Assembly (NCBI GenBank): GCA_947494975.1
Contig: CANLXA010000001.1
Coordinates: 744,001-808,000 of the forward strand
DNA from: an uncultured Roseicyclus sp.
GTDB taxonomy: Bacteria > Pseudomonadota > Alphaproteobacteria > Rhodobacterales > Rhodobacteraceae
Length of the DNA stretch: 64,000 bases
Direction: 5' to 3'
Below, piece after piece: positions 8,898 through 62,458 of this stretch. How positions within the stretch are numbered: the stretch's first letter is position 1; every line of letters begins with the position of its first letter. A model generated the notes under the pieces. That model was not told the origin of the DNA and ran no database searches. It saw only the letters and a program-made list of their open reading frames with translations. The position numbers were made by a program, and so were the translations under genes.

Positions 8898-9196
8898 CCG
8901 GGTCCCTCCTCCCCTGTTGCGTTTCTGCAGGGCATCAGCCAGCCCAGGTCACCCCCGCCGGATCGTCGGTGCCCACGATGTGGTACAGCGCGGCATCGCC
9001 CGTCATCGACGGATAGGCCGTGTGGTTGAGGTTGGCGGGAACGGACCCGGCATCTCGGCGGTTGCCCCGCCGCACCGATGATGGTGAAATTCTCCTTCCG
9101 GTCGCTGCCCGGCGTGTGGGCATCGATAAGGGCGGTGCGGCACGGTATCAGGTCGCCATATCGGACGATGCGGGCTTCCATTTCGGCAGGGGTCAT
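8894..9196 (-). pseudogene. Cupin-family gene remnant, internally deleted and frameshifted
   Basis: The first 41 residues from the ATG at 9196 (MTPAEMEARIVRYGD, then TPGSDRKENFTIIG) look like an intact cupin-type N-terminus. The frame then turns into low-complexity Arg-rich sequence. A second frame, ending at 8935, reads a C-terminal cupin-like strand pair (VPANLNHTAYPSMTG, then ALYHIVGTDDPAGVTWAG). The middle of the barrel with its metal-binding histidines is missing. Thus about 40 N-terminal and 35 C-terminal residues survive in different frames. The original frame still ends in an ATGA overlap with the next gene, so coupling to it may persist. The family assignment rests on recall of related sequences. 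Confidence 0.5.
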
Positions 9197-58035: not shown

Positions 58036-58428
58036 TCACTCCTCCCGCGCCCGCGCCATGTCGCCCCACTCGGGCCGTCTGCTGCCTTCGAACATCGGGT
58101 CGCGGAACATGTCGAGCGTCTCGTCGCCTTGCAGCAGCCCCATCAGTTTCGCATGCATGAATGATCGCAGCACCGCGTTCATGCGCGGTTGATATCCCGG
58201 CCCCATCGAACGGAACCATTTCAGGACATCCTCATCGACCGAGAAGCAGATCTTCGTCTTTGCGCTTTCCCGGCGCGACGCGATGTCGTGCCACGCGGTC
58301 GGCACCCGCCCGTTCATCGCGATGGCGTTGTGCATGTCGTATTCGAACCGTCGCATCGCATCGACCATGTAGTAATGGTGATGCCGCTCGGTCTTGTTCG
58401 GTGATTTGTCGACGAATTTGGTGTGCAT
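58036..58428 (-). CDS. Orphan BrnA-like antitoxin-domain protein
   Basis: The 130-residue protein has the BrnA/CopG-like ribbon-helix-helix signature SVDEDVLKWFRSMGPGYQPRMNAVLRSFM at about residues 62-90. BrnA normally follows the toxin gene brnT and represses the operon. No brnT-like frame is found within the upstream 100 bp, where proS ends. An N-terminal extension of about 55 residues is unusual. It may be an antitoxin that lost its toxin, or a DNA-binding regulator. A 38-bp repeat element lies 72 bp upstream. Confidence 0.72.
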   Translation of the reverse strand: MHTKFVDKSPNKTERHHHYYMVDAMRRFEYDMHNAIAMNGRVPTAWHDIASRRESAKTKICFSVDEDVLKWFRSMGPGYQPRMNAVLRSFMHAKLMGLLQGDETLDMFRDPMFEGSRRPEWGDMARAREE

Positions 58429-58499: not shown

Positions 58500-58537
58500 G
58501 ATATACCGGAGATATCCTTCAGATATACCGGTTCTAT
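58500..58537. repeat. Dispersed 38-bp element with direct GATATACCG repeats, copy 2
   Basis: GATATACCG at 58500-58508 and 58522-58530, again 22 bp apart, with GATATCC between and TTCTAT after. It matches 36394-36431 at all but about five positions. It overlaps the proS stop codon and lies upstream of the BrnA-like gene. Confidence 0.6.
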
Positions 58538-59892
58538 ACCGCCGCATTTACCGGTTTGTGGGCCTCGTAAACCTCCGCCACCCGCGCCACTGCGGCCTCG
58601 GGTGACAGCTCCTCGCTCTCCCCCGTCCGGCGGCTCGTCAGCTCCACCACGCCGTTTTTCAGGCCCCGCGGCCCCACGGTGATCCGCCACGGCAGCCCGA
58701 TCAGGTCCATGGTCGCGAACTTGCCGCCCGCCCGTTCGTTCCGATCGTCGTAGAGCGGCTCTAAACCGTGTGATTCCAAGGCTTTATAGAGCGCCTCACA
58801 GGCCGCATCGGCCTCCGCATCGCCCTGTTTCAGGTTCACGATCCCGCAATGGAACGGCGTCACACCCTCGGGCCAGATGATCCCGTTCTCGTCGTGGCTG
58901 GCCTCGATGATCGCGCCCATCAACCGGCTCACCCCGATCCCGTGGGAGCCCATATGCACAGGCACTTTGTTGCCATCCGCATCCTGCACCGTGGCGTCCA
59001 GCGGATCCGAGTATTTCGTCCCGAAATAGAAGATCTGCCCCACCTCGATCCCCCGCGCAACCCGTTGACGTTGCTCGGGAATTTTCGCGAACTCCGCGGC
59101 GTCATGGGTCTCGTCGGTGCGCGCATAGCGGCTGGTGAACTCGTCCAGAACAGCCCGGCATTGCTCCACGGAATCGTAGTCGATCTCCCGGTCGCCGAAT
59201 TTCAGATCGGTGATCTGGGCGTCATAAAACACCTCCGACTCGCCGGTATCCGCCAGCACCAGGAATTCATGGGTATCATCACCGCCAATCGGCCCGGAAT
59301 CCGCCCGCATCGGGATCGCCTGCAGCCCCATCCGCTCATAGGTCCTGAGATACGACACAAGGTGGCGATTGTACGCGTGCAGCGCGTCTTCCTTCGTCAA
59401 ATCAAAGTTGTATCCGTCTTTCATCAGGAACTCACGCCCCCGCATCACGCCAAACCGCGGCCGCATCTCGTCCCGGAATTTCCATTGGATGTGGTAGAGC
59501 GTGAGCGGCAGATCCTTGTAGCTCGACACATGGGCCCGGAAGATGTCGGTGATCATCTCCTCATTCGTCGGACCATAGAGCATATCGCGATCCTGCCGGT
59601 CGCGGATCCGCAGGAGCTCGGCGCCATAGGCATCGTAGCGTCCGGATTCCTTCCACAAATCAGCCGGTTGGATCGTCGGCATCAGCATCGGGATATGGCC
59701 CGCGCGGATCTGTTCCTCATGCACGATCCGCTCGATCTTGCGCAGAACCTTGTAGCCCATCGGAAGCCACGAATAGATCCCCGCGCTCGACTGTTTGATC
59801 AACCCCGCGCGCAGCATCAACCGGTGGCTGACAATCTGTGCCTCGGCGGGCGTTTCCTTGAGGACAGGCAGAAAATAGCGGGAGAGGCGCAT
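58534..59892 (-). CDS. proS: Prolyl-tRNA synthetase, short alphaproteobacterial form
   Basis: The 452-residue class II synthetase charges tRNA-Pro. It begins [19 protein letters not shown] and has motif 2 at [21 protein letters not shown], the HEFLVL segment, and [15 protein letters not shown] for motif 3. It lacks the roughly 180-residue INS editing domain of E. coli ProRS (572 residues), which is normal for alphaproteobacteria; a separate ProX would then edit alanine errors. It follows the micropeptide operon by 58 bp on the same strand. Confidence 0.96.
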
Positions 59893-59950: not shown

Positions 59951-60154
59951 TCACAAGTTCTCACGGCCCGACGCGCCGCCGGTCTGGAATTCGTCAGGTG
60001 CGGGGGGTGCAGGGCGGTCAATGCCCCAACCGCCGGTCGGGGTGCCAAACACGCCCGCATCGGCCAGCGGTGTGGAAGCCAGAAGGATCGCCATTGCGAA
60101 GGCGAGTGCCCCGAACGTGCCCATGGTAAGGAAGGTGATCCGCTCAAGGGTCAT
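59951..60154 (-). CDS. Small exported or membrane protein with GGWGIDRPAP motif, copy 1
   Basis: The 67-residue product has one hydrophobic segment (FGALAFAMAILLAST) ending in an ADA site near residue 33, which would allow signal-peptide cleavage. The predicted released peptide of about 34 residues starts GVFGTPTGGWGIDRPAPPAP. The motif is shared with the next gene upstream. I know no family for it. It lies three bases after that gene and 58 bp before proS. Confidence 0.65.
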   Translation of the reverse strand: MTLERITFLTMGTFGALAFAMAILLASTPLADAGVFGTPTGGWGIDRPAPPAPDEFQTGGASGRENL

Positions 60155-60157
60155 GGC

Positions 60158-60343
60158 TCAGGCAAGGCCTCCCCGTGTGGGGCCGGGGCCATGTGTTTCA
60201 GGCGTGGGCATAGGGGCGGGCCGGTCGATCCCCCAGCCGCCCACAGGCGTCTCCATCAGCCCGGCCTGCGCCAGGCCGATACCGGCTAGCGTGACCAGAA
60301 GGGCCAGCGTGGCAATCAGATGGAGGCGTCCGGGTGTCGTCAT
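60158..60343 (-). CDS. Small exported or membrane protein with GGWGIDRPAP motif, copy 2
   Basis: The 61-residue product has a signal-like helix (LIATLALLVTLAGIGLAQA) with an AQA site at residues 25-27, then GLMETPVGGWGIDRPAPMP and a Gly/Pro-rich tail. It is a tandem paralogue of the protein at 59951-60154: TPxGGWGIDRPAP is identical but for one residue. Its ATG lies one base after the TAG of the upstream gene, so translation is coupled. Confidence 0.65.
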   Translation of the reverse strand: MTTPGRLHLIATLALLVTLAGIGLAQAGLMETPVGGWGIDRPAPMPTPETHGPGPTRGGLA

Positions 60344-60344
60344 G

Positions 60345-60524
60345 CTAGAGGTCTTCCGAAATATCATCCATCGCGTCCGGCGCGGTCACCGCGCTGACGG
60401 CGGTGGGCGCAACCAGCGGAACCGATGCAGCGGCATTCGCGGAACGCATCCCGAAGAACACCGCCAATCCGGCCCCGACGATCAAAAGCACAAGCGTGGC
60501 AGTCAGGATGTTCATGGTCGACAT
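60345..60524 (-). CDS. Small single-helix membrane protein
   Basis: The 59-residue product has an N-terminal helix (ILTATLVLLIVGAGLAVFFG), an Ala/Val/Pro-rich middle and an acidic C-terminus (DAMDDISEDL). GGAG and AGGAGCTG precede the ATG at 60524. It heads the three-gene micropeptide operon. The motif AATCCCTACC (minus strand GGTAGGGATT) lies 69 bases upstream of its start. Confidence 0.65.
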   Translation of the reverse strand: MSTMNILTATLVLLIVGAGLAVFFGMRSANAAASVPLVAPTAVSAVTAPDAMDDISEDL

Positions 60525-60593
60525 TGGGGCAGCTCCTTCTCTCTCTCCGATGAACCCATCATAGGCGCCCGCGCAGAGCCGCGACAGGCAGGC

Positions 60594-60603
60594 AATCCCT
60601 ACC
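60594..60603 (-). promoter_or_regulatory. Shared GGTAGGGATT motif upstream of the 59-residue gene
   Basis: On the minus strand GGTAGGGATT ends 69 bases before the ATG at 60524. The same ten bases end 72 bases before the ATG at 60825. A TTAA lies 9-11 bases further upstream in both places. Equal spacing suggests a common promoter element. Confidence 0.45.
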
Positions 60604-60620
60604 TTCGGCACCTTAACCAA

Positions 60621-60651
60621 CAGAAAAAAGCGGCCCCAATGAAGGGGCCGC
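60621..60651 (-). terminator. Rho-independent terminator after the 32-residue gene
   Basis: GCGGCCCC-TTCATT-GGGGCCGC followed by TTTTTT on the minus strand is a textbook terminator, 75 bases after the stop at 60727. It makes the 32-residue gene a separate transcription unit. Confidence 0.92.
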
Positions 60652-60726
60652 GAGGGAAGGGAACAAGGGATCGGTGCAGCGGGACTAAGGGACAAAAGCC
60701 CGCCGCACCTTCAGGGACAAGTAGCG

Positions 60727-60825
60727 TCAGAACGCTCCGTTGGAGACGGGGGTTGTCAGCATGACCGAAAACATCACGAGGATCACCAGAATGGCAGAAC
60801 AAGCGATGTAATTCAGGGCGGTCAT
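60727..60825 (-). CDS. 32-residue membrane micropeptide
   Basis: A 33-codon frame starts at the ATG at 60825, preceded by GGAGGAGACC, and ends with TGA. The product MTALNYIACSAILVILVMF then SVMLTTPVSNGAF is a single membrane helix. The gene is too short for usual gene finders, but it has a strong ribosome site, a perfect terminator and an upstream motif shared with the operon at 60524. I infer a real, separately transcribed membrane micropeptide. Confidence 0.7.
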   Translation of the reverse strand: MTALNYIACSAILVILVMFSVMLTTPVSNGAF

Positions 60826-60897
60826 TGCAGGTCTCCTCCGAAGCGTTCTTCCGCGAAACCATAGCTAGGCCAGGCGCGTGCTGAACTCTATTGCGGG

Positions 60898-60907
60898 AAT
60901 CCCTACC
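60898..60907 (-). promoter_or_regulatory. Shared GGTAGGGATT motif upstream of the 32-residue gene
   Basis: This is the second copy of the motif at 60594-60603, 72 bases before the ATG at 60825 and a few bases after the ppx stop. The sequence around it reads TTAACCAAAGGGTAGGGATT on the minus strand. Confidence 0.45.
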
Positions 60908-60913
60908 CTTTGG

Positions 60914-62458
60914 TTAAGCGGCGATCCGAACGACGGGCTCGCAATCCATGGCCGACGCGAGGCCCTTGAACCGCGCCTCCACAACCTCGCCGAAAAGGTT
61001 GCGGCCCTGCTCGGATGTCAGCGTCAGGATCAGCTCATGCCGTTTCGGGCGCAGCAACAGACGGCCATGATCCACAGGGTTTTCGACCGCGAACATCGCA
61101 CCAAACCGCATCGCGCGGCCGAGGATCTCGGCCTGGCGCACCTGAGCTTCGGGAAGCAGCGTGAGCAAATCGGCGTTGAAGCCGGTCCCGTCGCGGTTGG
61201 ACTTGTAGCGGTGCAGCAGGGCAAGGCCGAGGAACACGCGCTCCCCATGAGTCAGCCCGCCCAGATTGGCCCGGGTGGCGTTGTCGAAACACACCTCGGC
61301 CCGGTAATCGGGATGCGCGCGCCAGCTCACATCGTGGAGCAGACAGGCGGCGCGGATCAGGCGCTTCTTGTCCGGCGCAGCGCGAGGGAAAAGCGGCTCC
61401 ACGAACCGGTAGAGCGCACGGCCAAAGCCCGGCTCCCGCGCAGAGGACGCCTCGGCATGGCGGGCGGCTTCGATCAGCGGGTCACGCTGGCGCAGGGTGG
61501 CGGACATCTGATCATAGAGCAGCCCCTCGCGCAGCCCGTAGCTGGAGATCGCAACCTCCTGCGGCTTCACCTGACGCACCAGCTGTTTCAGAACCTGGCT
61601 GGCCCAGGGCACCAGCCGCATCCGTTCCGCCGATGTGCCCGTGCCGGCGCGCAGCTCATCGGTATCGGAGGCCGCGATATGCTTGATCGTGGCCATGATC
61701 GCCTTTGGCGTCATGCGGTATTCGTGCAGCACCTTGAGGGGGTAATCCTGCCGGATCATGTCGATCCGCGCGATGGCCCGCCACGACCCCCCCACCAGAA
61801 ACAGGCGCTTGGGCCGTGTCGGGAAATCGGCGCAAAGCTCCGCGATCTGCGCCTCGATCTGGGCGCGGATGGCCTTCTTGCCACCCTTGATCCCCATCAG
61901 TTTCAGGGGCCCGAGATCGGACGTACGCCGCTCCCCCACCACGCCGTCACCCATCAATTCGGCCAGTTCCATCGACGACCCGCCGATATCGCAGATCAGG
62001 CCCTCCGCCCCCGGCCAGCCAAGAAGCACACCCTGCGCCGACAAGCGCGCCTCTTCCGCGCCGTTGAGGATGCGGATTTCAAGGCCAGTTTCAGACAGCA
62101 CTTCCGCCCGAAAGGCCGGGCCATCATCGGCATCGCGCACCGCCGCGGTGGCGACGGTGACCAGCGGCGTCACATCCATCGTCTTCGCCAGCGCTGCGAA
62201 CCGGCGCAAAGCCGTCAGGGCGCGCACCTTGCCTTCGGGGTTCAACTGCCCGGTTTCGGCGAACCCGGCGCCCAGGCCGCAGAGGATCTTTTCGTTGAAA
62301 TAGTAGGCGGGTGACCGGGCCGCGCCGTCAAAAACCACAAACCGGACGGAGTTGGACCCGATATCGATCACGCCCACGCGTTTCAGCCGCCGCGCTTCCG
62401 GGCCATCGAACAGGGGCAATCCGAAGGGGCCGAACTCGGCCTGCTGTTCCGCGTTCAT
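60914..62458 (-). CDS. ppx: Exopolyphosphatase (Ppx/GppA family)
   Basis: The 514-residue protein has the ASKHA fold of Ppx/GppA phosphatases: VIDIGSNSVRFVVFD near residue 30, TAAVRDADDG, NGAEEARLSAQGV, then CDIGGSSMEL near 160 and a C-terminal HD-like region (LLHDVSWRAHPDY). It removes terminal phosphate from polyphosphate or hydrolyses pppGpp. It lies 58 bp downstream of ppk1 on the same strand, so synthesis and degradation of polyphosphate are coupled. Confidence 0.94.
   Translation of the reverse strand: MNAEQQAEFGPFGLPLFDGPEARRLKRVGVIDIGSNSVRFVVFDGAARSPAYYFNEKILCGLGAGFAETGQLNPEGKVRALTALRRFAALAKTMDVTPLVTVATAAVRDADDGPAFRAEVLSETGLEIRILNGAEEARLSAQGVLLGWPGAEGLICDIGGSSMELAELMGDGVVGERRTSDLGPLKLMGIKGGKKAIRAQIEAQIAELCADFPTRPKRLFLVGGSWRAIARIDMIRQDYPLKVLHEYRMTPKAIMATIKHIAASDTDELRAGTGTSAERMRLVPWASQVLKQLVRQVKPQEVAISSYGLREGLLYDQMSATLRQRDPLIEAARHAEASSAREPGFGRALYRFVEPLFPRAAPDKKRLIRAACLLHDVSWRAHPDYRAEVCFDNATRANLGGLTHGERVFLGLALLHRYKSNRDGTGFNADLLTLLPEAQVRQAEILGRAMRFGAMFAVENPVDHGRLLLRPKRHELILTLTSEQGRNLFGEVVEARFKGLASAMDCEPVVRIAA

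Follow-up and report, generated by a model that had tools for sequence, protein, structure and literature searches.

Four micropeptide genes, designated A to D, lie between ppx and proS in an uncultured Roseicyclus, a member of the genus Roseicyclus/Roseibacterium in the Roseobacter group, on the minus strand of the 64-kb stretch of DNA analyzed here (64,000 nt; hereafter the window), in the order ppk1, ppx, A, B, C, D, proS (table 1). They form two transcription units, one consisting of A and the other of B, C, and D. The start of B is an internal ATG within a longer open frame and C is read from its second ATG; 1 nt separates the stop codon of B from the start of C and 3 nt separate the stop codon of C from the start of D. 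A preliminary description of this DNA had proposed four minus-strand micropeptide genes at this position, three of them in a coupled operon and A separately terminated. All of this was confirmed, with A present genus-wide, the frames apparently under selection, stop-start gaps consistent with coupling and an intrinsic terminator with a T-run 3′ of A. Downstream of proS the window also encodes a protein of the BrnA antitoxin family (58036–58428, minus strand; Pfam 5e-12), and a frame judged by eye to be similar lies behind proS in Roseibacterium persicicum KMU-115.

Table 1. Genes and sequence features of the ppx–proS region in the window (↓, putative cleavage site)
Feature	Position	Strand	Description
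ppk1	62517 onward	minus	Pfam identification
ppx	60914–62458	minus	Pfam identification
A promoter motif	60895–60907	minus	GGTAGGGATTCCC; putative activator site
A −10-like element	60862–60867	minus	TAGCTA; 40 nt from motif start
Gene A	60727–60825	minus	32 aa; hydrophobic, uncharged
Hairpin after A	60673–60709	minus	17 nt past A stop codon; loop with GUCCCUU
Intrinsic terminator of A transcript	60624–60651	minus	Hairpin 60651–60630 plus T-run; terminator scan
B-C-D promoter motif	60591–60603	minus	GGTAGGGATTGCC; exact
B-C-D −10-like element	60558–60563	minus	TATGAT; 40 nt from motif start
Gene B	60345–60524	minus	59 aa; membrane or signal segment and acidic tail
Gene C	60158–60343	minus	61-aa precursor; AQA↓GLMETPVGGWGIDRPAP
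Gene D	59951–60154	minus	67-aa precursor; ADA↓GVFGTPTGGWGIDRPAP
proS	58534–59892	minus	Pfam identification

In the proposed frames, pooled pairwise pN/pS came to 0.36 in the 13 A sequences, to 0.35 over the first 30 codons of B (the B leader, 13 sequences), and to 0.47 in the stretch of codons flanking the joint between leader and mature part of the motif peptides (15 copies), and in-frame stops were absent throughout (0/13, 0/13, and 0/15, respectively). The other two sense frames of these regions gave ratios of 0.91–2.84, one of them being interrupted by stops in 13, 13, and 5 sequences. Ratios similar to those of the sense frame (0.36, 0.49, and 0.47) were obtained for the antisense frame with coinciding third positions, as that coincidence would lead one to expect; this frame contains stops in 4 of 13 A sequences but is open in all B and joint sequences, and for the latter two the pN/pS test does not by itself discriminate against it. 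Chance open reading frames lying on a conserved stretch of regulatory RNA or DNA could account for that antisense result and for a hairpin and promoter motifs conserved as nucleic acid, but with in-frame ratios of 0.35–0.47 and frames free of stops in all sequences we regard such an origin as extremely improbable. The comparison supports selection on the genes at the protein level.

The two units have matching promoters. The motifs upstream of A and B are the sole sites with zero or one mismatch in 64 kb, both exact, which bears out the shared upstream motif noted previously; 0.42 sites at ≤1 mismatch were expected over this length, and 8 of 100 shuffles had two or more. When the best-scoring site per promoter was compared across the 14 A and 14 B promoters of 14 genomes, the sequence common to both sets, GGTAGGGAWWSCC, was exact in 21 of 28, differed at one position in 6 and at three positions in 1 (the B promoter of G008). 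Over the 13-nt motif, A promoters matched at 13/13 positions in 13 of 14 cases and at 12/13 in one, and the 14 B promoters comprised 8 exact matches, 5 at 12/13, and 1 at 10/13. A TA dinucleotide stands exactly 27 nt behind GGTAGGGAWWSCC (+40 from the motif start) in 28 of 28 promoters, the next best TA offset being shared by 11 of 14 A and 5 of 14 B promoters. The exact 13-mer was counted 37 times over the 13 genomes, with 19 occurrences at this locus; a reversed control pattern was counted 8 times. No sigma-70 consensus promoter was found at A or B, making activator-dependent promoters the likely reading.

A variant of the motif, GGTAGGGAAACCC with TA at +42, is found upstream of globin-like frames in G006, G007, and G008 (L271, L254, and L270). 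The G008 protein has a Pfam Globin match (7e-5), the G007 protein has no such match and is 45% identical to that of G008, and the short G006 frame was called globin-like by eye. In G008 and G007 the motif runs on into a palindrome, GGTAGGGAAACCCTACC. We treat these sites as a lead toward the regulator and not as a result.

The hairpin and terminator that follow A were found in all 13 genus genomes, the hairpin starting 12–17 nt past the A stop codon and comprising 11 pairs (10 in two genomes), followed by a mostly pyrimidine-rich linker and then the terminator; the hairpin was not found in KMU-115. The hairpin region was stabler than shuffles in all six sequences tested of the 13 (z −2.3 to −4.6). 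Covariation is weak: a single compensatory pair was seen, shared by two closely related genomes, and sliding the hairpin by +3 columns raises the covariation score (0.170 vs. 0.138), although only 65% of the cells then pair compared with 98.6%. A hairpin model, which matches positions 60624–60729 in the window, returned 73 matches at E ≤ 0.1 under strict filters over 394 family genomes; those above 100 bits were confined to G000 and G007, both of the same genus, and the next match scored 29 bits. There was thus no strong match outside the genus among the 394, two of which are genus members. Among the 29 matched sequences listed, 2 were those of G000 and G007, 12 belonged to another element and 15 resembled the hairpin in layout at most.

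No Rfam family matched the RNA region after A at thresholds. The covariance model of the suhB/mmgR small RNA (RF00519) matched the A unit weakly, along the linker and terminator, at 18.6 bits (E 1.9); its gathering score is 41, and membership was rejected. Separately, a near-invariant element of ∼75–85 nt, ACTGCTCGATAGGTTTCTTGCCTGTATGAAACCTGCCTCAATAACTT plus a terminator, was observed in 12 genomes of 12 other genera, near positions 1501–1585 of L278, L281, L282, L284, L285, L288, L289, L290, L291, L295, L298, and L300; it had no Rfam match at the gathering threshold in the 11 loci scanned and is possibly a conserved small RNA.

A CIN1/cuckoo RNA locus is marked by a DUF1127 protein, an RpoHI/RpoHII promoter, and the loop motif CCUCCUCCC. 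This loop motif is absent from the element containing the A hairpin and has its sole window match at 8905–8913. No Pfam family, DUF1127 included, was found for A, and none came near the cut-off for B, C, or D. On these two grounds the A unit was not assigned to the CIN1/cuckoo RNA type. The CIN1 locus of Rhodobacter sphaeroides encodes the DUF1127 small protein CcaF1 together with the CcsR sRNAs (PMC10253847). The A unit is similar to CIN1 in having a small-protein gene followed by a structured RNA and a Rho-independent terminator, and differs in having one hairpin with a GUCCCUU loop as opposed to the four sRNAs of CIN1.

With its 32 uncharged, hydrophobic residues and a hairpin past the stop codon, A could be viewed as a type I toxin with a structured message. 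We find this highly unlikely for a gene that every one of the 13 genus genomes keeps at a single housekeeping locus and that is apparently co-regulated with B-C-D. A scan of both strands for sigma-70 consensus promoters found none, and so none for an antisense RNA, although the promoters of the locus misfit that consensus too.

Peptides exported by the Sec pathway and cleaved by signal peptidase I have a positive n-region, a hydrophobic h-region, and small residues at positions −3 and −1. C (MTTPGRLHL...GLAQA↓GLMETPVGGWGIDRPAP...) and D (MTLERITF...PLADA↓GVFGTPTGGWGIDRPAP...) conform to this arrangement, as do peptides of the E type and three relatives outside the genus. The preliminary description had considered C and D to be paralogues with possible AxA cleavage sites, and we found support for this, the AxA-like joints being such that cleavage would give mature parts of 34 residues. 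Among 17 collected peptides, which include the block-less B of G005 as a deliberate contrast, position −3 is A or V in all 17 and a positive charge is present within the first ten residues in 14, the other three being B leaders; A at −1 is demanded by the leader/tail split itself. These calls were made by inspection and simple counts, with the h-region judged by eye. The putative mature part is 25–37 residues long and typically begins with the block G[VFL]xxTPxGG[WFL]G, from which the tail of the E peptide of G001 departs (AVLEAPAGGFR). Leaders are short in the relatives from other genera, that of G277 reading MRITAILLTLLLATPVQA↓GVYQTPAGGWG..., and the joint in G086 and G332 is ...A↓GFFGTPTGGWG.... 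A and B, without a positive n-region, show the Sec/signal peptidase I features in part; the A peptide of the window has N instead of A at the would-be −1 position and no charged residue, and is therefore probably uncleaved.

The B, C, and D types are one modular family in which leader and tail can have different relatives. In hand-picked pairs, C of G001 and D of G005 are 19% identical in their leaders and 92% in their tails, C of G001 and C of G005 are 56% and 46% identical, and B of G004 and B of G005 are 81% and 18% identical, respectively. At the nucleotide level the values point in the same direction less sharply, with leader/tail identities of 65/83% for the first of these pairs and 81/51% for the last. 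In the case of the G001 C peptide, a deletion between neighboring copies would explain the discordance. A break in relationship at the AxA joint is as expected if the two parts work separately.

Alternatively, all four products could stay uncleaved in the membrane, spanning it once and modulating a membrane protein, with the Gly/Pro-rich tail as an arm in the periplasm or cytoplasm. A is uncharged and ends approximately three residues past the would-be joint, the B leaders have no positive n-region, and an AlphaFold2 model of C from the single sequence has one helix (residues 4–30) followed by coil, with a pLDDT of 52–65 over the block, although this prediction adds little. We nonetheless consider uncleaved peptides at all four genes doubtful, if deserving serious attention, in view of the positive n-regions of the C, D, and E leaders and of the three outside relatives, the coincidence of the A/V-x-A joints with the beginning of the conserved block, and the break in relationships at those joints. 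In their n-region, hydrophobic core and A/V-x-A joint, the C, D, and E types and the outside relatives resemble other small proteins exported by Sec and signal peptidase I; they differ from the usual members of that class in having a mature part of merely 25–37 residues with no known domain and, for some paralogues, a leader and mature part with different relatives.

All 13 genus genomes contain A (E 5e-21 to 8e-16), each with B adjoining it. The two are also adjacent in strain KMU-115, where the assignment of A relies on its position and on a loose pattern. Motif peptides were present at E ≤ 0.01 in 8 of the 13, with one to three copies each. In four genomes (G002, G006, G011, and G012) they are absent and B is followed directly by proS, and in G008 there is a mere decayed-looking remnant below threshold. 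These absences, together with the off-block tail of the G001 E peptide, suggest that motif peptides are dispensable or changing fast. A second E-like leader with a repeat-like tail (TISRPASGSISRPSTGP) was noted in G003 (L009, 1499–1924, reversed locus), perhaps representing a motif peptide that is decaying or diverging. In G004 and KMU-115 the motif tail is fused directly onto the B leader; these two genomes fall apart in an unrooted tree built from concatenated nucleotide stretches of ppx and proS, so the fused B is either ancestral or has arisen twice. The GGWGIDRPAP motif of the preliminary description holds up as a peptide type in 8 of 13 genus genomes; the exact string is far narrower, occurring among the collected peptides only in this genome, its near neighbor G010, and KMU-115, the other genus peptides having GG[WFL]G, mostly one further residue, and then IDRP or a variant. 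A pattern search of the named genome collection matched 45 stretches, 4 of which encode relatives (three uncultured Roseicyclus contigs and one from R. persicicum KMU-115).

Outside the genus of the window, relatives were recognized in two other genera. A genus-only profile identified motif peptides in G277 (E 2.4e-15, G277 being excluded from the profile) and G086 (1e-5), and a profile containing the G086 peptide identified one in G332, of the same genus as G086 (1e-9); the motif peptide is present in one of two genomes of G277’s genus and in both genomes of G086’s. The genus-only profile matched 10 of 294 other-genus genomes at E ≤ 0.01, of which G277 and G086 were kept and eight dropped as chance (8.7e-4 or worse). 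A profile containing both of these sequences matched 35 of 294 at E ≤ 0.05, and its remaining matches outside the genus, the best at 0.0027, were likewise taken as chance. Matches to the A profile in 6 of 294 other-genus genomes (E ≤ 0.05) were weak, with a best E of 0.0127, and were treated in the same way. A short hydrophobic frame, MTALALVCGLILVAI..., lies between ppx and proS in G120, a close relative judged by proS (L112, 2421–2510); it has no Pfam match and is perhaps a relative of A.

Attenuators of aminoacyl-tRNA synthetase genes consist of a short leader peptide and a terminator/antiterminator before the synthetase gene. Pro-rich peptides sensing prolyl-tRNA and attenuating proS would fit the short Pro-rich peptides just upstream of proS here, where the Pro-rich tail ends 58 nt before that gene, and the retention of a motif peptide directly before proS in G086. 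However, scanning the minus strand from D to proS (59951 to 59892) revealed no terminator-like site, and the four genus genomes without a motif peptide keep the A-B-proS order. The outside relatives are variously placed, the G277 peptide being near proS and cut off from it by an inverted FAD oxidoreductase gene and the G332 peptide preceding a malic enzyme gene, which makes a proS leader role unlikely. A survey upstream of proS found the motif peptide only in the window and G086 among the 103 loci read of 130, the remaining 27 having no start by a simple search; the set included one locus that is not a proS region (L142) and one of just 138 bases (L156). The peptides also differ from synthetase attenuators in their long signal-like leaders. 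With no terminator-like site found and inconstant proS linkage, we rejected this mechanism as highly unlikely. A phosphate role, previously suggested by the ppk1-ppx neighborhood, likewise found nothing in its favor beyond that adjacency, and one of the relatives from other genera has its peptide at a different location.

The products of A to D had no match near a cut-off in Pfam, NCBIfam, PHROGs, or PADLOC-DB, nor did the motif family in Pfam, PHROGs, NCBIfam, or PDB sequences, nor the B family in PDB sequences, the best E in all protein-family searches being 0.036. A literature search recovered no paper on the locus, and the string GGWGIDRP was absent from the papers searched. Together with the Rfam result, these searches agree with the earlier statement that no described family was known to its author. 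Secreted weapons or signals, bacteriocin- or pheromone-like and diversifying between strains in their C-terminal part, would be compatible with a copy number of 0–3, with varying, discordant tails behind a fairly constant N-terminal block, and with the patchy spread over few genera. A Pfam scan of five neighboring proteins (ppk1, ppx, proS, the BrnA-type antitoxin, and one without a Pfam match) revealed no immunity, modification, or exporter family, however, and neither viral contigs, where none of the 15 stretches fitting the DNA pattern was confirmed, nor plasmid records queried with one motif peptide yielded relatives; we judge this function to be unlikely. We regard the group as a family of small, probably exported peptides distinguished by matched promoters and an unusual modular history.

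The interpretation that we favor, and consider rather likely, is a locus for membrane-inserted or exported peptides expressed from two co-activated promoters, with C and D as Sec precursors. An activator would bind GGTAGGGAWWSCC just upstream of two weak promoters and turn both units on together. C, D, and their relatives of the C, D, and E types, with some B peptides, would be Sec precursors. Signal peptidase I would cut off the hydrophobic leader at (A/V)-x-A↓G to leave a mature peptide of ∼34 residues, rich in Gly and Pro and probably unfolded. The N-terminal end of this peptide, a block that changes rather little and typically reads G[VFL]xxTPxGG[WFL]G(V)IDRP, may bind a partner in the periplasm or outside the cell, while the C-terminal part varies. 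A, and B peptides without the block, would remain small membrane peptides, and the hairpin 3′ of A may stabilize the A message or be freed as a small RNA. We infer from sequence that the exported peptides would act in the envelope or outside the cell.

A more elaborate and, in our estimation, distinctly speculative proposal is a peptide cassette system at one chromosomal site. Modules for signal peptides and for mature peptides would be interchangeable, recombination between them would fall on the codons that encode the signal peptidase joint, and all would be controlled by one dedicated activator. Species-specific sets of exported peptides might result, and the same activator might also fire a membrane-peptide message with a regulatory-RNA hairpin end and, in some species, a globin-like gene.

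Beyond the preliminary description, the present analysis adds the hairpin 3′ of A, the fixed spacing between motif and TA, the break at the AxA joint, and the finding that motif peptides are absent (4) or reduced to a remnant below threshold (1) in 5 of 13 genus genomes. Micropeptides of this kind tend to escape annotation, and the locus offers a compact example that can be tested. Several independent signs from sequence comparison indicate that the genes are real: the rigid promoter signature of both units, conservation of the hairpin, selection on the coding frames, and leaders and tails whose relationships disagree at the predicted cleavage joint. The promoter site offers a direct handle on the regulator, and if the peptides are exported, they would constitute a new peptide family in the Rhodobacterales.
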